A stretch of 64,000 nt of DNA from an uncultured Clostridia bacterium. Its GTDB lineage: Bacteria; Bacillota; Clostridia; Christensenellales; Borkfalkiaceae. The notes under the pieces were generated by a model, which saw only the letters and a program-made list of their open reading frames with translations, was not told the DNA's origin and did not search any database. Each line of letters starts with the position of its first letter. Positions within the stretch are counted from its first letter, which is position 1. The position numbers and the translations under genes were made by a program. Location of the stretch: NCBI GenBank assembly GCA_904419075.1, contig CAJFQM010000007.1, positions 62,001 to 126,000 on the forward strand, written 5' to 3'. Of this stretch, positions 7,581 to 22,982 are shown piece after piece.

Positions 7581-9530
7581 TTACGCCGCGGGTTTTTCCG
7601 CCACGATCGAAATTTCCGTGAAGGAAACGCTTCCCGCCTTTACCGGATTCGCCCCCGCATCGAAATAGTAGATCAATGAAAAAGCCGTGCCCGTATTTTC
7701 AGGAATTTCCAAATATACCGTATGCGTTCCTTGCGCAAATTCGGTATGTTCCATGAGCGCCGTATTCCCGATATACACGCCGAATTTGGTCGTCTGATCC
7801 GCGGTAAAGACAATTTTCAGGTATTTGCCCTTCGAAACATCATATCCCGAGACATCCTGCTGCGCTTTTGCCCACGTATCGCGCCCGTCGTTCCAAGAGA
7901 CGACGGTAACGCCGTCTTCCGTCGCGGCAACCGTATACTGCGTCGGTTGTCCCAAAGTTGCGTTCACGTCGTAAATCGTGCCGAACGTAAGGGGCATGCC
8001 GTCCGTAAAAGACACCTCGGAAATCGTAACGCTTCCCGCCTTGACGCCCTCCGCCTCTTCATTGGCGGCAAAGTAGTATTCGATGAGGAACTCCGATCCC
8101 GCCTCCGCATAGAGCGGAATATATAACGTATGCTCTCCCGCCGCGAGATCCGCACGATACATCTGCGCTTCGCCCGCACCGGTCGTATCTTTGACATAGA
8201 GAATATAAACGTCCGTCGTCCTTTCCAGCGTAAGCGCAATTTTCAGATACTCGCCCTCTTCGGCAGACCAGTTGGAAACATCCTGCCAGATTTTCGACCA
8301 CGCGCCCCTTCCGTCTGTCCAGCTGATTTTGGTGGAGCCGTCCTCCTGTTTCTCTACCGCATACGCCGCTTCCTGATTCCAAAGTTTTTCTCCCGGATCA
8401 TAGGGATCGCCGATTGAAAGCTCCGGAATTACGGGCTGAGGAGGCTCGTCGATGATGTCTCCGGGATTCTCTTCCGAAGTCTGCGGCTGATAGGGATCGG
8501 TCGTTCCGATCACAAGTTTGCCGTCCTTGGCGGTCGCAGGATAGAGCGGATCCGCCACAAAGCCCTGATTTACGCCCAGAGAGATACGCGCCATAGGCGT
8601 ATCGCCGAAACAGTTGGTACGCGCAAGCTCGAACAGATTGCCTTCAAGGTCTTCGATATAGGCGATCATCCAGCCTTCATCGCGCACGAGCGTCACATAT
8701 GAACCTCCGTTTTCCAAAAACGCCGCTTCAATCGCGTCGCCGCCTTCGGGAAGAAGATTGAAATGCACAAAGGCGTCGCTGTCGCTGAATCCACCGAACG
8801 CACCCTCCGCGTCATAGCCGAACTTGAAATGATACCACCGACTTTCGGAAAGCGTCCCCTCCGTATCGATGTTGAGGTTGAGGCGGAATTCGAGATGATC
8901 GTCCGCCATTTCGTCGATGAGCGTCGCAAAATCGGCATCCCCGATCTCCCAGCCGAGGAAGATGCGCAGAGCAAAATGCGTCTCCTTTACGGCGAGAGTA
9001 TAATTATTTTCATTCACCGTTGCATAGACGCGGGAAGTGGTTTCCGGAACACTCACCTGCGCGGGGCTGAGCAGGAATGTTTTCTGCTCGTAAATATCTT
9101 TCGGCTGCAATTCGGCGGTACACGCCTCATCGGAAAAATCCTTGCCGCAGACGGAACAATGATAATACGCAATCGCATCGCTTTCAAACATCTCGTCCGC
9201 AGTAAACGCTTCGACGAATTCGGGGGAATGCGCCGCGGGAATAACGGTATCCTCCAAGGAAATCTCGGTCGTGCCCGAAGCGTCAGAAAACAGCTTTCCG
9301 CAGCCTTCGCATTCCCAATACTGAATATTGCCGTCCTTCTCGCAGCGGGCGGCCGCGGCGGGAATCTCCTTCAACGTATGAGTATGTTCCGTCGATTCCA
9401 AAGAGTCGGCGGATGTCCCGACGGAATCCGACCCGCTCGTTGTACCCGTTCCGCAGCCGGCAAACGCCGACGCAAAGAACGCCGATGCAAACAACAGTGC
9501 CAATGTTTTCAAAAATCCTTTTTTCATCAT
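7581..9530 (-). CDS. Secreted lipoprotein with zinc-ribbon-like units and carbohydrate-binding-like modules
   Basis: 649 aa. A signal peptide ends in a lipobox (ASAFAGC). Residues about 50-145 hold two C-x-GNIxYWxCxxC-type units (CEKDGNIQYWECEGCGKLF and YYHCSVCGKDF), also found eight times in the protein at 55.7-59.8 kb. The centre (about 170-350) resembles a surface sugar-interaction domain. Residues about 370-510 and 515-649 are two copies of one module (SWTDGRGAWSKIWQDVS / SWNDGRDTWAKAQQDVS; GEYLKI / GKYLKI; KAGSVTISEVSF / KAGSVSFTEISI), and the neighbouring lipoprotein ends with a third. The modules look like beta-sandwich glycan binders; binding is inferred. It is last gene of the operon. 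Confidence 0.75.
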   Translation of the reverse strand: MMKKGFLKTLALLFASAFFASAFAGCGTGTTSGSDSVGTSADSLESTEHTHTLKEIPAAAARCEKDGNIQYWECEGCGKLFSDASGTTEISLEDTVIPAAHSPEFVEAFTADEMFESDAIAYYHCSVCGKDFSDEACTAELQPKDIYEQKTFLLSPAQVSVPETTSRVYATVNENNYTLAVKETHFALRIFLGWEIGDADFATLIDEMADDHLEFRLNLNIDTEGTLSESRWYHFKFGYDAEGAFGGFSDSDAFVHFNLLPEGGDAIEAAFLENGGSYVTLVRDEGWMIAYIEDLEGNLFELARTNCFGDTPMARISLGVNQGFVADPLYPATAKDGKLVIGTTDPYQPQTSEENPGDIIDEPPQPVIPELSIGDPYDPGEKLWNQEAAYAVEKQEDGSTKISWTDGRGAWSKIWQDVSNWSAEEGEYLKIALTLERTTDVYILYVKDTTGAGEAQMYRADLAAGEHTLYIPLYAEAGSEFLIEYYFAANEEAEGVKAGSVTISEVSFTDGMPLTFGTIYDVNATLGQPTQYTVAATEDGVTVVSWNDGRDTWAKAQQDVSGYDVSKGKYLKIVFTADQTTKFGVYIGNTALMEHTEFAQGTHTVYLEIPENTGTAFSLIYYFDAGANPVKAGSVSFTEISIVAEKPAA

Positions 9531-9614: not shown

Positions 9615-12080
9615 TTATTCAGACGGCTTTTCCGCGACGAATTCCATGTTCGAAATCATCGCGCTGCCCGCTTTAATATCGTTCAGACCGCCATCTAAAA
9701 AGATGGTGATGTAGAACGTCTTCAATTCGAGTGCGGATGCGGGCACTTCGATATACAGAGTATAACTGCCCGCTTTCAGATCGGTATGCGGATACCAGGA
9801 AATATCCGTGCCGCCCAAAGATTCCGCATGGCAGACGCAGAACTTCATGTCCCGATCGAGCGTGAAATCGATGCGCAGATATTTGAATTCGGGGTCGAAT
9901 CCGGTCACCTGCGCGGCGACTTTCGCCCACATGTCGCGCCCGTCCGCCCAAGTAATCTTCGTTCCGTCATCCGTCGCTTCGACGACGAACTGCGCGGGGT
10001 CGCCCACCGACGTATTCGTATCGAAAAGCTCGCCGATTTCGCCGGGCGTGGCGGGGATGAAGAATTCGCAATCGGAAATGCGCATGCTGCCGGCCGTGCC
10101 CGCGGGCGAACCGCCGTAGTTGAGGAAGAAATACACCTGCTGCACATCCGTGCCGTCGAGGTTATCGGCATTCAGCGTAAAAGTTCTCTTTTCGCCCGGT
10201 TTAAGAACGGTATGATCCATCCAGCAAATGTTCCAGCCGCCCCAGTATACGCCGATGCTGGCATCCGCCGTGCCGATGTTTTCCGCCGTGAAAGTGAACT
10301 TCGTGTAATCGGAAGTCAGACCGAAAACGGGCATGATGACGTAAGCGTCCGTCTTTCCGGCTTCCCAAGTCGCGTCATACGCGCCTTCGCCGCTCTCGGT
10401 TACGGTGATGTCCGTAATCCCTGTGACGGGACCGAGTTGCGGTTCTGCGGGACCTGTTTCTCCGTCGCGGTAGAATTCGATGGACGTGATCTCCACCGTG
10501 CGGGTACCGGCAAAGTCTTCCACCCAAGCACTGTCAAAATAGAAATTGAGCATCGCGATGCGACTGACGCCGCTGAGGTTGACCGTAGTGGTATATTCGC
10601 CCGTCTCTTCATTATAGGGAAGAGACGCGACGGGATTATACGCCAATTCGACGACGGTCGTGGAAGAATTGACTCCGATGCCGTATTTCTCCGCTCCCAC
10701 GCTGCCCATCTCCGTCCCCGTCGTCTTGAAAGTGACGACCATAGTCGAATATTCGGGCGTCCAATAGCGGACGGGAACGTCGAGATGATCCCAGCCGACA
10801 TCTGCGTCATAGGTCGCACGGATCTTGCCGCCGATCGCCGCGCCGCTGATGTGGAATTTACTGGTAGCGTCCCATTCCTCCGTCGCATAGGGCGTATAAA
10901 TAAGTTCAAGATCGGTCACTTCGAAAGACGCCGCGCCCGAACCGACAGAATCAATATAGAAGCGGATTTCATCCAGCGCGGAAGCGCCTCGTATGTCGAT
11001 GAGGATGCTTCCCGACGCCGCCGCGAGATTCCCGTCCAGAGTCACCGACGCACCGGTCGACTCGTTAATCCCGGAAAAGGCGTTGGTACCGTCGGAGACG
11101 GTAAGGGAGGAAACGTTGGAAGAAGTATAGCGGAGACGAATACGCCCGTAAGCGCCCGTAAACCTGCCGATGCCGACGGAGACGTAAGCGCCGTCCGAAA
11201 GCCCGCCCGCCGTATAATTGACGGTAAACACCCCGTCATAGCCATCGTCCGTCTCGGACGTCGTCAGCGTATAACCGCTCCCCACCGCCGTTATCTCTTC
11301 AATCGCGGGGGAATTGTCCACTTCCGTTGCCGGATCCCCTTCCTTATGGAAAGAGATGTTGGAGATTGTCAAAGCACCTTCTTCGTCCGCGGGATTCTGC
11401 GAAGGATTGCTGTCGATGTACACGAACAGACGGCAGATCGTCTGCGTATTGAGCTTGGTTGTCGTCGTGCCGTAAGAAGAAGTGACCGTATAATAATCGG
11501 AAAGATCGGTCACATAGCTGAGTTCGCCGTCCATCAAGGTTTCGACGAGAACACCCACCGCGGGAGCGGTATCGTACCCCTCCGCATAGGCGGCGGCAAC
11601 GGCGATTTTCTCCGCACCGACGATGTTTTCCAGATCGATTCGGATATAATCGTACCCCGCGCCCGGCTGATAATTGCAGACGTCGAAATAAACGAAGCTG
11701 TATTCGGAAAGGGCCTCTCCTTCCTTAGGATAGGAGATTTCCACGCCTTCGAATCCGTCCGAGCCGAGTTCGGTCACTTCGTAACCGTCGCTCCAACCGA
11801 CTGCCCCGATATAGGGCGCTTCGCCCTCCGTAATCTCCGGCAGATCGGGCGCCGAAGGCTTTTCGGGGGGATCGGGTACGGGCGTGATCGGTTCTTCGTC
11901 GGGAATGGGAATGGAAACGATGTCGTCCGGATCTTCGCCCGAATCGTCGTCCACGCTCGTCGTGTCGCTCGTGCCGCCCGTGACGTCCGAATCCGTTCCG
12001 ACGCCGTTATTACAGCCCGCAGCCACGAGCATGGCTGCCGAAAGCAACAATGCCGCAATGGCAATCAGTGACTTTTTCAT
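9615..12080 (-). CDS. Large secreted multi-domain lipoprotein of the glycan operon
   Basis: 821 aa. Signal peptide and lipobox (LVAAGC), then an acidic Ser/Thr/Pro linker (residues about 25-85). The rest is a string of four or five beta-rich domains of 130-150 residues, each ending in a hydrophobic strand such as LTISNISFHK, FEVTDLELIY, VEITSIEFYR and SMRISDCEFF. That ending is typical of galactose-binding-like beta sandwiches. The last domain (LFDTNTSVGDPAQFVVEAT to the end) matches the module repeated in the next gene, including ADGRDMWAK and IKAGSAMISNMEFVAEKP. No catalytic domain is recognised. It probably presents or captures glycan at the surface for the importer. Confidence 0.75.
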   Translation of the reverse strand: MKKSLIAIAALLLSAAMLVAAGCNNGVGTDSDVTGGTSDTTSVDDDSGEDPDDIVSIPIPDEEPITPVPDPPEKPSAPDLPEITEGEAPYIGAVGWSDGYEVTELGSDGFEGVEISYPKEGEALSEYSFVYFDVCNYQPGAGYDYIRIDLENIVGAEKIAVAAAYAEGYDTAPAVGVLVETLMDGELSYVTDLSDYYTVTSSYGTTTTKLNTQTICRLFVYIDSNPSQNPADEEGALTISNISFHKEGDPATEVDNSPAIEEITAVGSGYTLTTSETDDGYDGVFTVNYTAGGLSDGAYVSVGIGRFTGAYGRIRLRYTSSNVSSLTVSDGTNAFSGINESTGASVTLDGNLAAASGSILIDIRGASALDEIRFYIDSVGSGAASFEVTDLELIYTPYATEEWDATSKFHISGAAIGGKIRATYDADVGWDHLDVPVRYWTPEYSTMVVTFKTTGTEMGSVGAEKYGIGVNSSTTVVELAYNPVASLPYNEETGEYTTTVNLSGVSRIAMLNFYFDSAWVEDFAGTRTVEITSIEFYRDGETGPAEPQLGPVTGITDITVTESGEGAYDATWEAGKTDAYVIMPVFGLTSDYTKFTFTAENIGTADASIGVYWGGWNICWMDHTVLKPGEKRTFTLNADNLDGTDVQQVYFFLNYGGSPAGTAGSMRISDCEFFIPATPGEIGELFDTNTSVGDPAQFVVEATDDGTKITWADGRDMWAKVAAQVTGFDPEFKYLRIDFTLDRDMKFCVCHAESLGGTDISWYPHTDLKAGSYTLYIEVPASALELKTFYITIFLDGGLNDIKAGSAMISNMEFVAEKPSE

Positions 12081-12160: not shown

Positions 12161-13087
12161 TCATTCCTTGACGGAACCGAGCAGGATGCCCTGCACGAAA
12201 TACCTCTGCATGAAAGGATATACGCAGAGAATGGGAACCATCGCGATAAAGATCTGCGCCGAACGGAGAGTCATGTCGCTGCTCTTTTGAAGCTGCTCGA
12301 TGGTATCCGGATCGAGATGCTGAATATCGTATTGAAGTTTTTTGAAACTCTCCATCACGTCGTAGATATACGTCTGCAAAGGCCAGTGTTCGGGATCCAT
12401 ATACAGATACCCGTCGAACCAGTTATTCCAGTGCCCCACCATGCACAAAAGGGTGATTGTGGCGAGGATGGGAAGGGAAACGGGCACAACGATCTGCCAC
12501 AGGATACGGTAATCTCCCGCGCCTTCGATATTCGCCGCTTCCAGCATTTCCGTGGGAACGTTGCGGAAAAAGTTCACGAAGAGGATGAGATTCCAAGGGG
12601 ACAGCGCCCCCGGCAGGACGAGAACGAGAAAGTTGTCGATCAGCCCGATCCGCGAAATCATGATGTAAGTCGGCACCGTGCCGCCGCTGAAAAACATGCA
12701 GAGGAGAATGAGAAACACATAGAACTTTCTCCCCTTCAACGTCCTTCGGGCAAAGGCGAGCGGATAAGCCGCCAACACGGTGACGAGCAGGTTGATCCCC
12801 GTCCCCACGAACACGCGCGCCACCGAGATGCCGAAAGCGACGAAAAATTCGTTCTGCCGAAGCAGGTAAATATAGCTGTTGAGGGTGAAATCCACCGGCC
12901 AAAAGGATACGATTCCCGCCGAAACCGCCGATTGGGAACTTAAAGACACCGCCAGAATATAGACGAATGGCAGAATACACACAAGGCTCCAAAGGCACAG
13001 CACCGTTATCGTGACGACGAGAAAGATCTTCCGCGAAGTCGAAGAACGGATTTTATTGGGATTTTTCTTCAATATTCCTGCCGTCAT
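12161..13087 (-). CDS. ABC sugar transporter permease (LplC/YtcP type)
   Basis: 308 aa with six predicted membrane segments. The EAA loop that contacts the ATPase is EAANIEGAGDYRILWQIVVP, and WNNWFDGYLYM is typical of the LplC/YtcP (CUT1, AraQ-like) branch. It begins one base after the stop of the other permease gene and forms the channel with it. No ATPase gene is in the operon, so a shared MsmX-like ATPase elsewhere is likely. Confidence 0.92.
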   Translation of the reverse strand: MTAGILKKNPNKIRSSTSRKIFLVVTITVLCLWSLVCILPFVYILAVSLSSQSAVSAGIVSFWPVDFTLNSYIYLLRQNEFFVAFGISVARVFVGTGINLLVTVLAAYPLAFARRTLKGRKFYVFLILLCMFFSGGTVPTYIMISRIGLIDNFLVLVLPGALSPWNLILFVNFFRNVPTEMLEAANIEGAGDYRILWQIVVPVSLPILATITLLCMVGHWNNWFDGYLYMDPEHWPLQTYIYDVMESFKKLQYDIQHLDPDTIEQLQKSSDMTLRSAQIFIAMVPILCVYPFMQRYFVQGILLGSVKE

Positions 13088-13088
13088 G

Positions 13089-14015
13089 TCAAAGCACCTC
13101 GTAATCCAGCTTCTTCGCCGCGAACAGATAGCTCGCGCCGAACAGTACGCAGCAGATCACCGATTTGAACAAACCTACCGCCGTACCCAGCGAATATTGG
13201 AAAGTACTCGCATTCAGAAGACCGATGCGGTAGGACATCGTATCGATGATGTCACCCGATTCGTATACCAGAGAATTATAGAGGGCAAGCACCTGCTCAA
13301 ATCCCGCGTTCATGATATTGCCGATGTTGAGCACCATCATGAGAATTATGATGGGACGGATACAGGGCAAAGTGACGTGAAAACATTGTTGTACGCGGTT
13401 TGCGCCGTCGATTTCCGCCGCCTCGTAAAGCCCGGGAGACACGGCGGTAATTGCCGCCAGAAAATAGATCGCCTGATACCCCAAACTTTTCCATAGTTCC
13501 GAAACGAACAGCACGACGGGAAACCATGTATTGCTGCCCAAAAAGGATATGGGCTCTCCTCCGAACGCCTCTATCATGCGGTTGATGGGACCGTCCAAAC
13601 TCAGAAGATCGATCATGATCGACGAGAGGATTACCCAGGAAAGGAAATACGGAATAAAGACGATGACCTGTATCCCCTTTTTCAGCCGCAAAAACGGAAT
13701 TTCATTCAGAAGCAGGGAAAGCAGAATCCCCAGCCCGATGAGAAGCACGAGCTTCACCACGCTGATATATATGGTATTGAACAGCACCTGTCGGAAATCC
13801 GGACGGCTGAAAATCTGTCGGAAAAAGGCAAATCCCACGTAATCCGCGCTGAACAGTGCCTCGAAATACCCCATTCCGTATTTGGGCTGGTATTTGCTGA
13901 ATGCCATCCAAATGCCGATCATGGGAAAGACGTTGAAGACGATCAGCAAAATTGTCCCCGGAAGCATCATGCTGTGCAAAACCAGTTGTTTTTTGGTTTT
14001 GGATCTCAACTGCAT
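13089..14015 (-). CDS. ABC sugar transporter permease (LplB/YteP type)
   Basis: 308 aa from the ATG at 14015. Six membrane segments, and the EAA loop EAAEIDGANRVQQCFHVTLP. The N-terminus resembles LplB/YteP, the partner of LplC-type permeases for complex oligosaccharides. A GTG at 14018 directly before the ATG overlaps the TAG stop of the binding-protein gene by one base; the ATG is preferred because GAGGGG lies 8 bases upstream. Either way the two genes are tightly coupled. Confidence 0.92.
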   Translation of the reverse strand: MQLRSKTKKQLVLHSMMLPGTILLIVFNVFPMIGIWMAFSKYQPKYGMGYFEALFSADYVGFAFFRQIFSRPDFRQVLFNTIYISVVKLVLLIGLGILLSLLLNEIPFLRLKKGIQVIVFIPYFLSWVILSSIMIDLLSLDGPINRMIEAFGGEPISFLGSNTWFPVVLFVSELWKSLGYQAIYFLAAITAVSPGLYEAAEIDGANRVQQCFHVTLPCIRPIIILMMVLNIGNIMNAGFEQVLALYNSLVYESGDIIDTMSYRIGLLNASTFQYSLGTAVGLFKSVICCVLFGASYLFAAKKLDYEVL

Positions 14016-14017
14016 CA

Positions 14018-15928
14018 CTATGTCCCCTCTACTCTCTCCTGTCGCGCGTCATACCACTGATTGACCTGGTGAAGAACCGCGCCTCCGCCGTTGTCGGTGT
14101 ATTCTCGGACAAATTCGTCCCAATCGTCCAGACTTTTTTCGCCCGTGATGACGCCAAGGAAATACTGATCCATATACGAGTCCAGCCACTCACCGTATAC
14201 CTGCTGCGCGGGCGTGCGCTCGCCGTAAAAGACATTGAGTCTGCCCTGTTTTTCGCCTGTGGACAGTTCCGCAACGTACGAATAGCCGCCGTTCGGATTG
14301 ATCGTCTGTTCATAGATGCCGTATCCGCTCTTTTCCGCAGTGTTCATGTCCGCCGTACCCTTGCCGTTGCGAATCGCCTGCATATACGGATAACCGTATT
14401 TGAAACCGTTGTCCCGCTCGCGCGTCCACAATTTGTTGAAAATATCGCCGTATTCGCCGTTTGCCACCTCTTCGTACCACGCCTCCCAATCGTAACCGTC
14501 TTCGCACATCGCGGCAAGCGTCTCGTCGGGAATGCGGAATCCCGCTTCCCAAAGCTCTTCAAATACCTCTTCGAGACGGTAATACGAATCCATCGAATAG
14601 GGCGTATACCAAAGCTTGATGGGAACCCAGCTATAAAAGAATCCCCCTTCCGGCGTCGCCAGAGAACCGTATTTTTCCTGCGCGTCGTCGCTGTAAAACA
14701 TATCGTAAAACAAGTTGCACAGCTTTGCCGCCGCTTCGGGGTGTTCAAATCCTTTTCGCACCACGATGTACGAACCCAGACTGGTCGCATTCACGACGGG
14801 AAGAGACGCTTCGCCGTTCCGGGACGGAAGTTCAATGGAAATCCATTCCGCATCCGGCGTGTAGGCGTTGTTCACGGAGGACTGCAACGGATAGGACGCC
14901 GCGTGCCACATGCCCGACATGATCCCAACCTTTCCGGCCACGATATCGTTGGTGACTTTTGCATCCGTCGCGGTGTAAAATTCACGGGAAATCAGCCCCT
15001 CTTCGTACAGTCCGTGCAACGCTTCGAGCGCCTCTTTCATCTCGTCCGAAGTATTGGCATCGATGATTTCCCCGTTCTCTTCAAAGAAAGCGTTGGGCTG
15101 GGTGCCGAAGATGTTGAACAGACCCGACGCGGTGTTGTTTCCCTGCGCCGCCAGCTCCTGCGTGATGCCGATAGGAATGATGTCGTTCGCCGAGATTCCC
15201 TGTGAATGAGCGGCGATTTCTTCCGCATGATCCCGGAAAGCGCGCGCCGCGTCGATGAGTTCTTCATATGTCGAGGGAACTTCCTTGCCGACGATATCCA
15301 GCCAATCCTTACGAATATACAGCTTCTGAGCCGATTCGTTGGGGTTGTTGACGCTCGGGAAAGCATATAGTTTTCCTTCCCGCATACATGTTTCCAATCC
15401 CGGATAATAGAGGTCGTCGAGGAAAAAATTCTCCCGAAGGTTGTCGTTCAGATACCAAAACGCGGTACCCAGGTCTTCGATAAGTCCGTTATCCCGCAAC
15501 ATAGCAAAGGTCGTAGCATCGTTGACGACGAACATATCGGGCAATTCGTTCGCCGCGATGAGCATGCTCAGGCGGGTCTCGTAGTTGCCGCTGGAAAGAA
15601 CTGACGTATAGTCGAGTTCGATATTGAGGTAACGAAGTGCCGCATCGTTAAACGCATTGTTTGCCGGTCCCGTCGTCGCCCCGTTGTAAGTAGGCGGAAT
15701 GTTTCCGATCGGATCGTAATTGATCCCCAAAACCTTGATCGTCACCGTATCTTCGTACGCTTCCAAAGGATCGTAATCGTCCCCGAGCGGATTTTCGGGC
15801 AACGTGCCAGGATCGACAACTTCATAATCTTCATAAAGGGGCGCGGGATCGCACGCGACCGCCACGGTGCCGAATGACAGCACAGCGAGCAAAAGTGCCA
15901 TCGGTTTCATTAAATTGCGAGTTTTCAT
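14018..15928 (-). CDS. Extracellular sugar-binding lipoprotein of an LplA/YtcQ-type importer
   Basis: 636 aa. Signal peptide with lipobox (TVAVAC), then a large two-lobed solute-binding fold; ANELPDMFVVND, LYAFPSVNNPNE, LYIRKDWLDIVGKEVPSTYE and VGIMSGMWHAA are typical for large LplA/YtcQ-like oligosaccharide binders. It would be tethered outside and deliver ligand to the two permeases encoded directly downstream. The length is at the high end for binding proteins but normal for this cluster. AGGAGAG precedes the ATG. Confidence 0.9.
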   Translation of the reverse strand: MKTRNLMKPMALLLAVLSFGTVAVACDPAPLYEDYEVVDPGTLPENPLGDDYDPLEAYEDTVTIKVLGINYDPIGNIPPTYNGATTGPANNAFNDAALRYLNIELDYTSVLSSGNYETRLSMLIAANELPDMFVVNDATTFAMLRDNGLIEDLGTAFWYLNDNLRENFFLDDLYYPGLETCMREGKLYAFPSVNNPNESAQKLYIRKDWLDIVGKEVPSTYEELIDAARAFRDHAEEIAAHSQGISANDIIPIGITQELAAQGNNTASGLFNIFGTQPNAFFEENGEIIDANTSDEMKEALEALHGLYEEGLISREFYTATDAKVTNDIVAGKVGIMSGMWHAASYPLQSSVNNAYTPDAEWISIELPSRNGEASLPVVNATSLGSYIVVRKGFEHPEAAAKLCNLFYDMFYSDDAQEKYGSLATPEGGFFYSWVPIKLWYTPYSMDSYYRLEEVFEELWEAGFRIPDETLAAMCEDGYDWEAWYEEVANGEYGDIFNKLWTRERDNGFKYGYPYMQAIRNGKGTADMNTAEKSGYGIYEQTINPNGGYSYVAELSTGEKQGRLNVFYGERTPAQQVYGEWLDSYMDQYFLGVITGEKSLDDWDEFVREYTDNGGGAVLHQVNQWYDARQERVEGT

Positions 15929-16013: not shown

Positions 16014-17591
16014 TCAGTCGGCATAAAGGCTGACTTCGCTAATCCACATCAGATTGGGACGTGCGGTAGGTCCGTCGCCCGCCGTCTGCACCACCCGATA
16101 GCTATCGGCGGGCGACGGGACGTTCAGCGTAATCTCGCTTCGCTCCGTCTCTTCGGGAATGTCTGAAATTTCTCCCACGCGCACCCATTCGCCGTCGATA
16201 AGTGCTTCGACGTGTACCTCTTTGGACGAATATACCAGCCCGTTGTCCCACGCCCAATCGACGACGAGTTTAGTCGCCTGTACGGGTTCGGCCACCGTCA
16301 TCTGCACCCAGTGATCCATCACCGTCTCCGCGCTTGCCCAGTTCGCCCACTGGAATCCGATGAGATCGAAGTTATCGGCGTTGGCTATATAGCCGTCGTT
16401 GAGGGCGCTTGCGCTGTATCCCGTGAACGATGAATCCACTTCCACCGTGCCGCCGTTGGAGGAATAGATGAGATTCGCAGACGAAGTATCGCCGTTGATG
16501 TCCACCCCCTCGATCGGGTCTCTCAAAGACAGCGCACGTATGCCGCGCTCGCTCTGCGGACGAAGGTCAAAGGGCGCCATCGGTCCGTCCAGAATACGGC
16601 CGTTCATCGTGAGGTAAGGGATGAAGTCGAATTCCCAGTCGAGATCGTAAATCGCCTGTTTGACGACTTCGGCTCCGTCGATCGGATAATATTCCAGCCC
16701 GAACACGGGGAAGTACTTCTTCTGCCGCACCGCGTTGACGATGGACACTCCCCACTGTCGGTTATAGGAAAACTGTACGGAATTTTCGTCCAACATGTCG
16801 TATTCGAAAGTCGTCAGGTCGTAAGCCGTACTGAACAGCTCGAACATGACCCCGTCCAACGCTTCGTACACGGTGGGTACGACGGTAAATCCACGGTTTA
16901 AGACGAGTTTAAGATCAGGCCACTTTTCGTGCACGGTCATGATGAGATCGCACATATCGTTAAAGGTTTCGGGAAAACGGTCGACGGAGTCCACCGTATC
17001 GATGAAAATACCGTCATAGCCGTCGTCCACCACGCTCTGAATGTCCTCGAAGAGGAATTCCCGCCAGGCGGGCGAACCGGGATCCGTGTAATAGGAACCC
17101 CAGTCTCCGTTGGGAATCGGCTTATCTTCTTCATCATACAGGTAATAAGACGCAAAGCCGCCCGGGCCCAGGCCGTCCCCCGTACGCAAAGGATTATCTT
17201 CGCCGAAAGAAATGTAGCGGATCGTCCAAACACCCGCCTCCTTCAATTTCTGCAATCCGTCCGCTCCGATGTTGCCGCTGATGATGCCGACGTCGTAATC
17301 AAGCATTTCTTCCTGAAAAACCCCGTAATTACAGAAATAGGAACTGACTTTGTTCCACTCCCGCTTCTGACCGTTGCGGGGGCTGTAATCGGGTTCCTGA
17401 CGGAACTGTTCGGGAACGACCGCTCCCCCCTGCGAGCCGTCCCCCGTCGAATCGGTATTCCCGTCCGTCGTACTCGTCGCGGAATCCCCGCCCGTACTCG
17501 TCGCAGGGGGATTGCCACCGCAAGCCGCCGCGGAAACGACCGTTATAACGGACAGTATCGCCGCAACCAGCGCCATTAGCTTCTTTTTCAT
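16014..17591 (-). CDS. GH114/TM1410-like glycoside hydrolase lipoprotein with a discoidin-type domain
   Basis: 525 aa from the ATG at 17591 (AGGAGG upstream); the 74-codon longer frame overlaps the preceding gene and is rejected. Signal peptide with lipobox (SAAACGG), Ser/Thr linker, then a TIM-barrel-like domain at about residues 60-360 with YDVGIISG, GVWTIRYISFGE, GYDGIFIDTVDSVDR and LVLNRGF. These match the GH114/DUF297 endo-alpha-1,4-polygalactosaminidase clan, where the IDTVD aspartates are candidate catalytic residues. Residues about 380-525 look like an F5/8 type C (galactose-binding) domain. Substrate is inferred to be a galactosamine- or hexosamine-containing glycan. Confidence 0.78.
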   Translation of the reverse strand: MKKKLMALVAAILSVITVVSAAACGGNPPATSTGGDSATSTTDGNTDSTGDGSQGGAVVPEQFRQEPDYSPRNGQKREWNKVSSYFCNYGVFQEEMLDYDVGIISGNIGADGLQKLKEAGVWTIRYISFGEDNPLRTGDGLGPGGFASYYLYDEEDKPIPNGDWGSYYTDPGSPAWREFLFEDIQSVVDDGYDGIFIDTVDSVDRFPETFNDMCDLIMTVHEKWPDLKLVLNRGFTVVPTVYEALDGVMFELFSTAYDLTTFEYDMLDENSVQFSYNRQWGVSIVNAVRQKKYFPVFGLEYYPIDGAEVVKQAIYDLDWEFDFIPYLTMNGRILDGPMAPFDLRPQSERGIRALSLRDPIEGVDINGDTSSANLIYSSNGGTVEVDSSFTGYSASALNDGYIANADNFDLIGFQWANWASAETVMDHWVQMTVAEPVQATKLVVDWAWDNGLVYSSKEVHVEALIDGEWVRVGEISDIPEETERSEITLNVPSPADSYRVVQTAGDGPTARPNLMWISEVSLYAD

Positions 17592-17616: not shown

Positions 17617-18894
17617 TTATTCGGAAAAGCCCTCGATAGACTTTTCAAACTGTTTGAGATCAACGCTCTCGCCGCCGTGCAGGCGGGAGTATTCCGCCGC
17701 AAAAGCCATAATATGACTCTCAATGGCACTGTAAATCCCGGAAATCGCCTCCCGATGTCCTTCACTCGTCTCGTCGAAGAAGTCGGTGAGGAGCTGATTG
17801 TCTCCCCCGCCATGCCCCGAGAGGTCGGTCGCGAGTTTATTGATGTCGTACACTTCCGTTTCGCCGCCGAAGGGCGTACAGCGGATGATATTGCTCCGCT
17901 GATCCCCTTCGATCTCCCCTTTCGTCCCCATCACGCGGATGGAACGGAATACTTCGGCGGAAAAGGCGGACATCGTAAAACTGACTGTCACGCCGTTTTC
18001 GTATCGGATCGCCACCGACTGGTGATCGACCACATCGTTGTCGCAGGCAAAGACGCATCTGCCGTAAGGGCCTCTCTTCAAAGCCTCTTTCACCGCATCC
18101 ACACTCCCCGTCGGCGCAACCACGCACCGCACCCATGGACGTTTTGTCTCTGTATCCTTGCCCAGATAAATCCGCTTGGCGCTGTACACACAACTGTCGC
18201 AATAGGGACAGACGAGGCAGTAATCCGCCGCCCCTTCCGGCTTATGCGCGGCGTTGAAATAACTGAGGGAGCCGAAAGACGAGATGCTGCCGCAAGGGGA
18301 TCCGATGAGATAATTCAGAATATCCAAATCGTGACAGCTCTTCTGCAAGATCATCGGGCTGGAACGCTCGCAATTGCTCCAATTCCCGCGGACAAACGAA
18401 TGCGCCTGATGCCAATAGCCGACGTTTTCCACCGCGTCGATGTTGACGACCTCCCCGATCTTGCCCGATTGAATGATACTTTTGATCGTCCTGTAAAAAG
18501 TGGTATAGCGCAGGACATAGCAAACCGCCACTTTCCGATCCAGCCGTTTCGCCGCATCGCGGATGGCGATGCAATCCTTCGGCGTCGTCGCGATCGGCTT
18601 CTCCAAAATGAGATCGTATCCCCTCTCCAATCCCTCCAACGCGTGACCGACGTGCTGCTGATCCTGCGTCGCCACGATGAGAACGTCTGCCAGTTTTTCT
18701 TTCGAGAGCATCTCTTCCGCGCTACGGAAACACATCGCAGGAGGTACCTGCAAATCTTCCGCCGCCATTTTGAGTTTTGCCTCGTCGATGTCCGCAATCG
18801 CCACCACCCTCATCCGTTCGGGATGAATTTTCTGGTATTGCGCATATGTGTAAAAGCCTCGGGGACCCAGTCCCGCTATCGCAACCGTCGTCAT
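17617..18894 (-). CDS. Gfo/Idh/MocA-family sugar oxidoreductase with a Cys cluster
   Basis: 425 aa. N-terminal NAD(P)-binding Rossmann fold (VAIAGLGPRGFYTY), the EKP motif at about 99 (LILEKPIATT) and the HDLDILNYL substrate motif. A cysteine cluster CLVCPYCDSCVYSAKRIYLG sits mid-protein, as in a subgroup of these enzymes found in complex-glycan operons of Firmicutes. It likely oxidises or epimerises a sugar released by the pathway in the cytoplasm. First gene of the leftward operon; AGGAGA precedes the ATG. Confidence 0.88.
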   Translation of the reverse strand: MTTVAIAGLGPRGFYTYAQYQKIHPERMRVVAIADIDEAKLKMAAEDLQVPPAMCFRSAEEMLSKEKLADVLIVATQDQQHVGHALEGLERGYDLILEKPIATTPKDCIAIRDAAKRLDRKVAVCYVLRYTTFYRTIKSIIQSGKIGEVVNIDAVENVGYWHQAHSFVRGNWSNCERSSPMILQKSCHDLDILNYLIGSPCGSISSFGSLSYFNAAHKPEGAADYCLVCPYCDSCVYSAKRIYLGKDTETKRPWVRCVVAPTGSVDAVKEALKRGPYGRCVFACDNDVVDHQSVAIRYENGVTVSFTMSAFSAEVFRSIRVMGTKGEIEGDQRSNIIRCTPFGGETEVYDINKLATDLSGHGGGDNQLLTDFFDETSEGHREAISGIYSAIESHIMAFAAEYSRLHGGESVDLKQFEKSIEGFSE

Positions 18895-19025: not shown

Positions 19026-19054
19026 ATTTTAACACCCTTTTTTTTTCGTGTAAA
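19026..19054 (-). promoter_or_regulatory. Promoter of the seven-gene glycan operon
   Basis: Minus strand TTTACA (19054-19049), 17-bp spacer, TAAAAT (19031-19026). The leader to the first gene is about 125 bases. The paired half-sites described next abut the -35. Confidence 0.8.
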
Positions 19055-19055
19055 T

Positions 19056-19086
19056 GCACAAAATTCTAAGAAACAAGCACAATCGT
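19056..19086. promoter_or_regulatory. AraC-type operator, two direct half-sites 21 bp apart
   Basis: GCACAAAATT at 19056 and GCACAATCGT at 19077, both on the plus strand and 21 bp apart start to start (two helical turns), as AraC-family activators need. The nearer half-site begins one base beyond the -35 of the operon promoter. The same arrangement occurs before the GH89 gene. Confidence 0.75.
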
Positions 19087-19126
19087 CTATAAAAACCAAT
19101 TTTTGTCTGTTTTTGAAAAAAAGATC

Positions 19127-19155
19127 TTGATTTTCCTTTTTCGATCGGATATAAT
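19127..19155 (+). promoter_or_regulatory. Promoter of the AraC/PocR regulator, predicting a leaderless mRNA
   Basis: TTGATT (19127-19132), 17-bp spacer, TATAAT (19150-19155). The start codon is at 19162, where transcription should begin. There is no Shine-Dalgarno sequence. Confidence 0.8.
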
Positions 19156-19161
19156 AACGGC

Positions 19162-19974
19162 ATGAAATTGGTTGTCGACGAAAAAAAACTCTATGTTCTC
19201 CTGAAGGATTTCCATCAACTCACGGGATTGAAAGTTTCCTTTTCCAAAGACTACGATACGCCCATTTTGGGCGTGCCGTATAATATCTGCGAGCTGTGCC
19301 GTTATAAACAGCTCGACCGCGAATTTTATCTCCGTTGCAAGGCGAGCGACAAAAAGGCGTACGACCTCGCCTCCCGCAGCGACGAACCGTATATCTACGA
19401 ATGCCATTACCACCTCACCGAAGCATTGCAGCCCGTGGTCGTCTACGGAAAACACGTCGGCTATTTCCTGATCGGACAGATGCTGACCGACCGAGAGAAA
19501 TTCATCCGTCTAAATCGACCGACCGATTACGAACTTTCCCTGCTCAAAGATCTGGCATCTCCCTCTCTCGAAACCCTGCGCTCGGCGGCCGCAATTCTGT
19601 CCTGTCTTGCCAAATATACCGTTATAGATCGGTATATAGGACTAAGCGCGCAACAGAATCTCGACGCCGTCCTCGAATATATCGACGAACATTACCGCGA
19701 ACACATCACCGTCGCAGACCTGTGCCGCATCTTCCATTACAGCCGGCCTTCCCTGTTCATGCATTTCAAAAACGAACTCAATCAGGGAATCACTTCCTAC
19801 ATAAATGATCTGCGACTGGAAAAAAGCAAGGCCCTTTTGGAAGAACATCCCGTCAAGGAGGTTTCCTCTCTTGTCGGTTTCGAGGACGCTAACTACTTCT
19901 CCCGCATTTTTAAAAAAAAGTACGGCGTATCCCCTTCCGTTTTCACAAAAAAGTCACCCCCCCCCCATCATTAA
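19162..19974 (+). CDS. AraC-family regulator with PocR sensor domain
   Basis: 270 aa. Residues about 8-150 are a PocR-type sensory domain with its cysteines (ICELCRYKQLDREFYLRCKASD, YIYECHYHLTEALQPVVV). The last 100 residues are the double AraC helix-turn-helix: HITVADLCRIFHYSRPSLFMHFK and VKEVSSLVGFEDANYFSRIFKKKYGVSPS. It is divergent from the importer operon and lies between it and GH89, so it is the likely activator of both. The last codons fall in a run of ten C residues (19956-19965), giving SPPPHH. The start ATG is leaderless but agrees with the expected PocR N-terminus. Confidence 0.88.
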   Translation: MKLVVDEKKLYVLLKDFHQLTGLKVSFSKDYDTPILGVPYNICELCRYKQLDREFYLRCKASDKKAYDLASRSDEPYIYECHYHLTEALQPVVVYGKHVGYFLIGQMLTDREKFIRLNRPTDYELSLLKDLASPSLETLRSAAAILSCLAKYTVIDRYIGLSAQQNLDAVLEYIDEHYREHITVADLCRIFHYSRPSLFMHFKNELNQGITSYINDLRLEKSKALLEEHPVKEVSSLVGFEDANYFSRIFKKKYGVSPSVFTKKSPPPHH

Positions 19975-20035
19975 AGTAATACAAAGAGCCACAGCCCAAT
20001 CCCTGCCCTTCGATTTTATATTTTTCCCCCAAAAA

Positions 20036-20085
20036 GCCCCGAACCCGTCGGAGCGATACGCTCCGACGGGTTCGGGGCCTTTTTT
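20036..20085. terminator. Strong bidirectional terminator between araC-type gene and GH89
   Basis: A near-perfect 20-bp stem (20036-20055 with 20059-20078) closed by a 3-base loop, with TTTTTT to the right and CTTTTTG to the left. It serves both converging genes. Confidence 0.95.
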
Positions 20086-20101
20086 AGCGTTCTTTTTGAT
20101 T

Positions 20102-22258
20102 TCAGCCGAGTTTTTCTCTTTCGCAGAAGGACAAAAATTCCCCCACCGCCTTCCCGGGATCCCCCTCAGCGACGAGGGGATAACTCTTTCTCCCGTAGGC
20201 GAACATGATTTCCCGATCGTAATCCCGATAGGCGGGAAGGGAGGCTCCGCCATACAGGGACAATTCGAGCATGGACACGAACGTTTCCCAACGGGGACGG
20301 TAAAAATCCGAAAGCATCCCCTGCCATTCCTTTGCCGCATATTCGTGGAACCAACCCGTCCGGCTGTCGCTCCAAGTCGTAATCTGCACACGGGCGTAAA
20401 ATTCAAACCAGCGTTTTTCCAGCTCGTTCTTGCCCTGTGCCTTTGCCCGTTCCAGCCATTTGCTCAAAAGAAAATGTTTGTCGGAAGCGACGATTGCCTC
20501 CTGTAAGGAGAATAATTCGAAAAACCGATGCGTCCAATGCGAAACCCCCTCCTTATCCCCCGCCTTATAAGCGCGCAGAAAGGCATAGACGGCATCCCAG
20601 CCCAACGCCGCGTTGCACTGGCGGGCGAGATCGACGAGGTCAAAGCGATAGGACGGAGCGTCTTTCAAAGAGTCGTAATCGGAAAAGAGCAGGCGGGTCG
20701 CCCGCACGAGTTCCATGCGTTCCGCCGTCCCCTCTTTACATCCTCTGCCCCAGGTAGAAACCCTGTCGACGTCGAGAGAGGGACGAGCGCAAAACACCGA
20801 TTCCATCGGATAGACGGAACTGTCCGCAAGATATACTTTCTCAGCGAGAATCGCCCACGCCTCTTCAGCTGCGGCGCTTTGCCCGCCGTAACGACGGCGG
20901 ATAAAACCGCGCAGATAATCCTCCAAAGGCAACGGCTTTTCCCGCACCGAAACGGAAGCGAAAATATCGAAAAAGATCTCCCCGTCCTCCACTCCTTCGG
21001 GCATAAAGCCGACGCCGACCATCGTACTGTCTTTATCCGCCGCAAAGGAAAAGGGTGCGGAAAGTAAGCGGCGGACATTGCCGCGCATCACGTGCTGACC
21101 GCCGAAATTGACGACGTTGCAATACAGCCACGGGGTATCGCCGAAATTGTCCCCTCCCCCGCCCTTTTCGTCCGCAAGCAGATCGCCCACCAATACCTCT
21201 CCCGCATCCAGCACGGAGAGCAGCTCCCGACGCGGATTCGCCTGCCAACCCTGTAAGAACCAGACCGCGTCCGCGTCGTGTTTTTTCATCTTTGCCATGA
21301 TCGCTTCGGCAAACGATTTCAAATCGACCCCTTCAGAAATTCCTCCTTCATGGAAGGGATCGACCGACCAATAATGCGCTTCCCCCACCGTCCGACGCTG
21401 AATTTCGTAATAGGCGTCGGCAACGGCATCGAACATCGGATCGCCGGGCAGGAGATACGCCGGACGGCGCAGACCGTTCCAAAGTCCCTGGTCGAAAGGC
21501 GCCGACTTAGGAAAATGCGCCCGAAAATCGTCCGGAACCATGCCGCAATACCCCGGCAGCATCGCCGCCGCGCCGAATTCCCGCAACCGATTTGTTATTT
21601 TCCGAGCAAGCTCCGACCGTGCGTCAAACCACCATTCCGGATACTCGCCGCCGTAATCGCTCATGTTTCCCATCCAAAGGAAGGGCAGAAAGGCGGGATT
21701 GACGAGAAATTTCCGAATCTGTTGTCCCGTATAGCCCAGCTCCTCCAACAGCTTTTTCCATACGCTCTCACAGCCGACGGGGTTGAGGATCAGATTGTAT
21801 CCGGAAAGCAACGCCCTGTCGAGTATGCGTTCCCAATCCTCCCAGCCGCTGAACGCATACGTATAGGCAAACGTACAGAAATTGAAAAGATATCGGTAAT
21901 GGAAAACGCTTCTTTCCGACTTTTTATCCTCAAAAAGAGGCGGATTCGGCGGCAGTGTCCCGCTTGTCGTGATAAATCCGACATAATAGCCGCAATATTC
22001 TCCGAGATAACGGTTAAATGCTACCGCCGCGGCAACGCCCGAAGTCGCGTCAATACAGACATGCCCCCCTTCGCAGTATAAATCATATTCGTCCATTCCG
22101 CTTTCGGACTCCCGCCGCCGAATCCGAAAAAGAGAGGCGTATCCCTCCCCCGCGACACGGCGGATCAAGCCTCGCACCGCCTCTTCGTCCAAATAAAAAG
22201 GAATATTTCGGCGCTTGGTCTCGCCCGCCCGTTTTTTGATGTTCTCCGCTCTCTTCAT
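20102..22258 (-). CDS. GH89 alpha-N-acetylglucosaminidase (NAGLU family), cytoplasmic
   Basis: 718 aa. NAGLU blocks in order: YRYLFNFCTFAYTYAFSGWE, a WMGNMSDYGGEYPEWW block, GYCGMVPDDFRAHFP, DPFHEGGISEG (position of a catalytic glutamate in the family), WFLQGWQANP, and CNVVNFGGQHVMRGN. GH89 enzymes remove terminal alpha-linked GlcNAc, as found on heparan sulfate or gastric-type mucin. There is no signal peptide, so it should act on imported oligosaccharide. The ATG at 22258 follows AAGGAGG; a TTG seven codons upstream overlaps that site and is rejected. Its promoter carries the same operator as the importer operon. Confidence 0.88.
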   Translation of the reverse strand: MKRAENIKKRAGETKRRNIPFYLDEEAVRGLIRRVAGEGYASLFRIRRRESESGMDEYDLYCEGGHVCIDATSGVAAAVAFNRYLGEYCGYYVGFITTSGTLPPNPPLFEDKKSERSVFHYRYLFNFCTFAYTYAFSGWEDWERILDRALLSGYNLILNPVGCESVWKKLLEELGYTGQQIRKFLVNPAFLPFLWMGNMSDYGGEYPEWWFDARSELARKITNRLREFGAAAMLPGYCGMVPDDFRAHFPKSAPFDQGLWNGLRRPAYLLPGDPMFDAVADAYYEIQRRTVGEAHYWSVDPFHEGGISEGVDLKSFAEAIMAKMKKHDADAVWFLQGWQANPRRELLSVLDAGEVLVGDLLADEKGGGGDNFGDTPWLYCNVVNFGGQHVMRGNVRRLLSAPFSFAADKDSTMVGVGFMPEGVEDGEIFFDIFASVSVREKPLPLEDYLRGFIRRRYGGQSAAAEEAWAILAEKVYLADSSVYPMESVFCARPSLDVDRVSTWGRGCKEGTAERMELVRATRLLFSDYDSLKDAPSYRFDLVDLARQCNAALGWDAVYAFLRAYKAGDKEGVSHWTHRFFELFSLQEAIVASDKHFLLSKWLERAKAQGKNELEKRWFEFYARVQITTWSDSRTGWFHEYAAKEWQGMLSDFYRPRWETFVSMLELSLYGGASLPAYRDYDREIMFAYGRKSYPLVAEGDPGKAVGEFLSFCEREKLG

Positions 22259-22287
22259 TTCGACCTCCTTCCGCCTCAAGCGACATC

Positions 22288-22348
22288 ATTATAGCAGAAT
22301 TTTTCGTTCGGGGAAAGGCACAATCGTATAAATCATCCGCACGATCGT
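22288..22348 (-). promoter_or_regulatory. GH89 promoter with AraC-type operator
   Basis: TATAAT at 22293-22288 with a very poor -35 (TTTCCC, 22316-22311). Half-sites GCACAATCGT (22318) and GCACGATCGT (22339) are 21 bp apart. The first begins exactly 30 bp from the start of the -10, as in the importer operon. A weak -35 fits an activator-dependent promoter. Confidence 0.75.
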
Positions 22349-22907: not shown

Positions 22908-22982
22908 TGGAGCAGGTGACGAGAGTCGAACTCGCCGGAATCAGCTTGGGAAGCTGACGCCATACCGCTAGGCGACACCTGC
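22908..22982 (-). tRNA. tRNA-Gly (anticodon CCC)
   Basis: 75 bases with CCA encoded. Acceptor GCAGGTG pairs with CACCTGC, discriminator T. The anticodon arm is TCAGC-TTCCCAA-GCTGA, giving CCC, which reads GGG glycine codons. The T-loop is TTCGACT. A consensus promoter and a terminator flank it. Confidence 0.95.

Follow-up and report, generated by a model that had tools for sequence, protein, structure and literature searches.

Matching 21-bp paired operators suggest a PocR–AraC regulon of a sugar importer operon and a separate GH89 gene in an uncultured Clostridia bacterium

The window analysed here, a stretch of 64,000 nt, comes from an uncultured gut-type Clostridia bacterium, whose full genome (2,332,098 bases or 2.33 Mb, in 38 contigs) we rebuilt for scanning. 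A regulator gene on the plus strand lies between an importer operon and the gene of a GH89 enzyme, both on the minus strand (Table 1). The regulator combines a PocR sensory domain (Pfam PF10114, residues 4–154 of 270) with a C-terminal AraC double helix-turn-helix (PF12833 and PF00165), and is matched by the solved chains of AraC, Rns and MarA.

The importer operon, whose predicted extent follows from the tight packing of genes on the same strand, begins with a Gfo/Idh/MocA oxidoreductase and continues with a GH114/PelA-like lipoprotein, a large sugar-binding protein and two permeases; no ATPase gene was recognised in it. The matches of the GH114/PelA-like lipoprotein to PF03537 (E = 3e-9) and to PelA chains (4e-13) are both partial, and its start and lipobox were read from the sequence; a surface scavenger of alpha-1,4-GalNAc polymers is a possible role. 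Enzymes of the GH114/PelA type are endo-alpha-1,4-N-acetylgalactosaminidases. The binding protein has an 80% match in a further genome (G073), located at the edge of a contig; a search for a close regulator in G073 found none. Of the two large lipoproteins that follow the permeases, the 821-aa protein had no match in Pfam, NCBIfam or PDB and the 649-aa protein had none in Pfam or NCBIfam and only a short, weak one in PDB. Their C-terminal segments, built of repeated units, look alike by eye, and both proteins are possibly glycan-binding surface proteins.

The GH89 protein carries all three NAGLU domains (N, barrel and C), as does the Clostridium perfringens enzyme CpGH89, and alignment to the structure of the latter (2vc9) shows both catalytic glutamates to be kept; their positions come from a manual count along the alignment that uses a deduced chain offset. 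In CpGH89 the catalytic residues are E483 and E601 (PMC8225759). The protein differs from CpGH89/NAGLU in comprising 718 aa without carbohydrate-binding modules or a visible signal peptide, and it is therefore probably cytoplasmic. A TTG at 22279 was considered as its start and set aside in favour of the ATG at 22258, which has a GGAGG site. A strong bidirectional terminator separates the regulator gene from the convergent GH89 gene, so that GH89 depends on its own promoter. Upstream of the gene we note a tRNA gene (22911–22982) and, between 22400 and 22900, short reading frames that look broken. Apart from this tRNA, the leaders gave no Rfam match that would indicate a riboswitch.

Table 1. 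Genes, operators, promoters and terminator at the locus (positions in the window; −10 and −35 elements given on the promoter strand)
Feature	Position	Strand	Basis or conservation
649-aa uncharacterised lipoprotein, possible operon member	7581..9530	-	Sequence
821-aa uncharacterised lipoprotein with repeated segments, probable operon member	9615..12080	-	Same strand; partly collinear in the relative
ABC permease 2	12161..13087	-	Pfam PF00528
ABC permease 1	13089..14018	-	Pfam PF00528
Large sugar solute-binding protein, 636 aa	14018..15928	-	Pfam SBP_bac_1; solved relatives including AlgQ1/AlgQ2
GH114/PelA-hydrolase-like protein with lipoprotein signal and F5/8 type C-like domain	16014..17591	-	Pfam PF03537, PelA chains
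Gfo/Idh/MocA oxidoreductase, first gene of importer operon	17617..18894	-	Pfam; collinear in the relative
Importer promoter: −35 TTTACA (19054-19049), 17 nt, TGT-TAAAAT (19031-19026)	19026..19054	-	−35 and −10 identical in the relative
Importer operator, proximal half-site AATTTTGTGC	19056..19065 (promoter strand 19065-19056)	-	Identical in the relative
Importer operator, distal half-site ACGATTGTGC	19077..19086 (promoter strand 19086-19077)	-	One change in the relative
Regulator promoter TTGATT-N17-TATAAT, 6 nt to ATG, no Shine-Dalgarno	19127..19155	+	−10 to ATG identical in the relative
PocR–AraC regulator, 270 aa	19162..19974	+	PF10114 E = 3.3e-24, PF12833 E = 1.7e-18
Strong bidirectional terminator	20036..20078	.	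20-pair stem, T tail on both strands
GH89 alpha-N-acetylglucosaminidase, 718 aa	20102..22258	-	Pfam NAGLU domains, E down to 3e-91
GH89 promoter: −35 TTTCCC (22316-22311), 17 nt, TGC-TATAAT (22293-22288)	22288..22316	-	Sequence and genome scan
GH89 operator, proximal half-site ACGATTGTGC	22318..22327 (promoter strand 22327-22318)	-	Sequence and genome scan
GH89 operator, distal half-site ACGATCGTGC	22339..22348 (promoter strand 22348-22339)	-	Sequence and genome scan

The importer and GH89 promoters both read along the minus strand, and each is preceded by two direct half-sites (ACGATYGTGC/AATTTTGTGC on the promoter strand). On the forward strand these are GCACAAAATT (proximal) and GCACAATCGT (distal) at the importer, and GCACAATCGT (proximal) and GCACGATCGT (distal) at GH89, and all four lie where the initial annotation of this DNA had placed them. 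It had further described a distance of 21 bp between half-site starts and a −10 hexamer at an offset of 30 from the proximal half-site; reading the sequence returns both values at both promoters, with 11 nt left between the half-sites and with hexamers at 19026 (TAAAAT) and 22288 (TATAAT). The proximal half-sites had been said to abut the −35. They are indeed adjacent to it, but with a gap, since one nucleotide intervenes on the promoter strand at both promoters. The GH89 −35 is as poor as had been stated (TTTCCC, 3/6 of TTGACA), and that of the importer reaches 5/6 (TTTACA); the spacer to the −10 is 17 nt in either case. Both promoters also have an extended −10 (TGn-TAWAAT; TGT at the importer, TGC at GH89), a feature absent from the initial annotation.

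We scanned the whole genome for comparable sites. Bare GCAC pairs are frequent at every spacing, with 27 at 21 bp, so the four-base core alone carries no meaning; the rare feature is the 10-bp similarity combined with the promoter geometry, not the pairing of GCAC. A match at 19–20 of 20 positions with a 21-bp spacing occurs genome-wide only at the two sites of the window. Since the scoring pattern was derived from these two sites, we added a leave-one-out test, in which the matrix (PWM) was trained solely on the importer operator from this genome and one relative. The GH89 operator then ranks directly after the training site genome-wide, at 24.1 bits compared with 19.7 for the next (margin 4.4), and once a −10 at the matching offset is counted in, it reaches 34.4 bits compared with 17.4 (margin 17). 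At other spacings (11 to 40) the top score is 23.8, at 39 bp; the margin is thus modest without the promoter and becomes large once the promoter is included. Under a simple base-composition model, the GH89 operator would be expected 0.03 times per genome without the −10. Requiring a −10 at that offset lowers the expectation to ~1e-5 and leaves the site far above all others, which makes a chance resemblance, for which the 27 GCAC pairs could be cited, extremely improbable. The initial annotation would have taken many equally good sites inside unrelated genes as a refutation; the scan found none. As further members of a regulon, the next-best sites in the genome were rejected, given their far lower scores and the lack of a −10 at the right place.

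Our comparison genome is that of a relative in another genus (L063, apparently the same contig as G066:C34), which is 89% complete. It holds the one regulator ortholog found, 84% identical and with nearly unchanged predicted recognition-helix regions (few residue differences), and a collinear importer operon. Within the divergent gap, the stretch of half-sites, −35 and −10 is identical at 58/69 positions and the remainder at 104/199, a footprint defined by two genomes. In a site search of the relative's genome the importer operator scored highest, followed by weak matches with two mismatches; a one-mismatch site lies within a coding sequence resembling dUTPase by eye and was dismissed. Operator, regulator and importer thus travel together. 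The earlier proposal that one factor co-regulates the importer operon and GH89 is strongly supported by genome-wide uniqueness and by the conservation of this block, and the AraC-family regulator encoded between the two units very probably turns both on together.

The divergent PocR–AraC protein is the best candidate for binding both operators, as suggested by its divergent neighbourhood, its co-conservation with the operator, the AraC-typical direct repeat of 21 bp and the position of the sites next to the −35s. A search of this genome with the regulator yielded 19 matches, which are most probably other AraC-type proteins and any of which might control both promoters through these sites while the divergent gene acts elsewhere. 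We regard this as unlikely: the gap upstream of the divergent regulator gene itself holds the operator, the relative in another genus has kept the two together, and the genome offers no operator of such quality beyond those of the importer and GH89. Among the regions upstream of 52 PocR–AraC homologs, the 21-bp repeat was not clearly enriched.

The placement of the half-sites beside the −35 points to activation rather than repression. Sites that end one base from an imperfect −35 followed by an extended −10 fit activation of class II, and we consider it probable, with good confidence, that the importer operon and GH89 form a two-promoter regulon under the PocR–AraC protein with class II-like activation. 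In this model, the PocR domain would sense a small molecule; two regulator subunits would occupy the direct half-sites in tandem, just upstream of the −35; and the regulator would recruit RNA polymerase to promoters with extended −10 and imperfect −35 elements, in a manner resembling AraC class II activation. One promoter would then serve the oxidoreductase, the GH114/PelA-like lipoprotein, the sugar-binding protein, the two permeases and probably the two further lipoproteins, and the other GH89, probably a cytoplasmic protein, as a separately terminated unit. A distant loop site was not detected. The importer −35 could permit transcription independent of the activator. This same 5/6 match, and the capacity of a protein beside the −35 to block polymerase, would also agree with a factor that represses until released by ligand, or that represses without ligand and activates with it; a constitutive promoter fitted with the boxes of Salmonella PocR can be repressed by that protein (PMC11264322). 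Against this stand the 3/6 match of the GH89 −35 and the location of the sites, which lie upstream of the −10/−35 spacer rather than over it, like those of AraC class II activators, whereas pure repressors more usually sit downstream of the −10. Repression in either form therefore seems a slim prospect compared with activation.

Outside the half-sites and the −10, the importer and GH89 promoters share 19/35 positions, a value that equals or beats ~99% of 461 extended −10 sequences compared with the GH89 promoter. This hints that one of the two promoters may descend from the other by duplication. That the GH89 promoter is just a degenerate duplicate, its likeness reflecting descent and not present regulation, is nevertheless very improbable: the resemblance of the two promoters is among its strongest in the half-sites, whereas the −35 and the DNA separating the half-sites differ to a large degree, and descent is in any case compatible with regulation.

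In the relative, neither GH89 (in the 89% of the genome available) nor a second operator was detected, so that GH89 was either recruited here or lost there; and since the regulator, the operator and the importer all persist in the relative, the pathway does not strictly require GH89. The relative's contig has no similarity beyond the regulator, so the segment that carries GH89 may have been acquired. In three other genomes with GH89 homologs (41–46% identity), the flanks hold no paired sites. The initial annotation had tied alpha-GlcNAc removal to import: the catalytic glutamate pair and the lack of a visible signal peptide favour this coupling, and the relative without detectable GH89 weakens it. 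The combination of a PelA-like enzyme with GH89 suggests an alpha-linked amino-sugar polymer as substrate. A more specific scheme, in which the regulon scavenges such a polymer (a Pel-like or galactosaminogalactan-like exopolysaccharide) by PelA/GH114-like cutting at the surface, ABC uptake, removal of alpha-GlcNAc by GH89 and product sensing by PocR, is speculative and probably incorrect; if true, a cytoplasmic GH89 would have been recruited through the gain of a matching operator.

In AraC itself, the araI1–I2 half-sites form a direct repeat of 21 bp with the proximal one beside the −35, and the half-site is TAGC/TCCATA. The half-site described here (GCACRAWMRT) is unlike that of AraC, and the sensory domain is PocR rather than cupin. 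To our knowledge, Salmonella PocR is the only PocR to have been characterised. The two units that it activates include a catabolic operon, and the number of units predicted here is likewise two. As the regulator of cob/pdu it shares with the present protein the PocR sensory domain and the AraC helix-turn-helix; its boxes of 20 and 48 bp lie 52 bp apart, with box II 9 bp from the −35, and the interaction with the promoter has been called unclear (PMC11264322). We rejected identity with the Salmonella-type protein on account of (i) the score against its equivalog family (NCBIfam NF047788), 99.9 bits with a cut-off of 500, and (ii) the operator, 10-bp half-site pairs at 21 bp as opposed to boxes of 20 and 48 bp. 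Motifs with a 21-bp direct-repeat periodicity have been predicted for AraC-family regulators of rhamnose regulons in Bacillales, Bacteroides and Enterococcus (PMC3870299), and the tandem periodicity and the sugar uptake or catabolism targets are common to these, to AraC and to the regulon proposed here.

A neighbouring AraC regulator also accompanies AlgQ2/LplA-type operons for oligosaccharide ABC importers, which likewise combine a large binding protein, two permeases, no recognised ATPase gene, a surface glycosidase-like protein and an oxidoreductase. What differs here is the surface enzyme, a GH114/PelA-like lipoprotein, and the separately promoted GH89. The regulon is thus of a kind already known, well supported and ordinary, and otherwise a case of routine sugar uptake. 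It yields a specific candidate operator for a PocR–AraC regulator beyond the cob/pdu systems, points to the genes that this regulator probably controls in an uncultured gut-type bacterium, and may exemplify how a scavenging enzyme enters, or leaves, a regulon via a matching operator.

The promoter arrangement of the regulator gene itself, with its −10 so close to the ATG, suggests that the regulator mRNA is probably leaderless. Genome-wide, TATAAT precedes ATG by 6 nt in 39 cases, compared with 3 at 5 nt and 7 at 7 nt; when a −35 is required, 14 cases with 6 nt are left, none of them (0) with a Shine-Dalgarno sequence. In this Clostridia-type genome, leaderless genes seem to be reasonably frequent.
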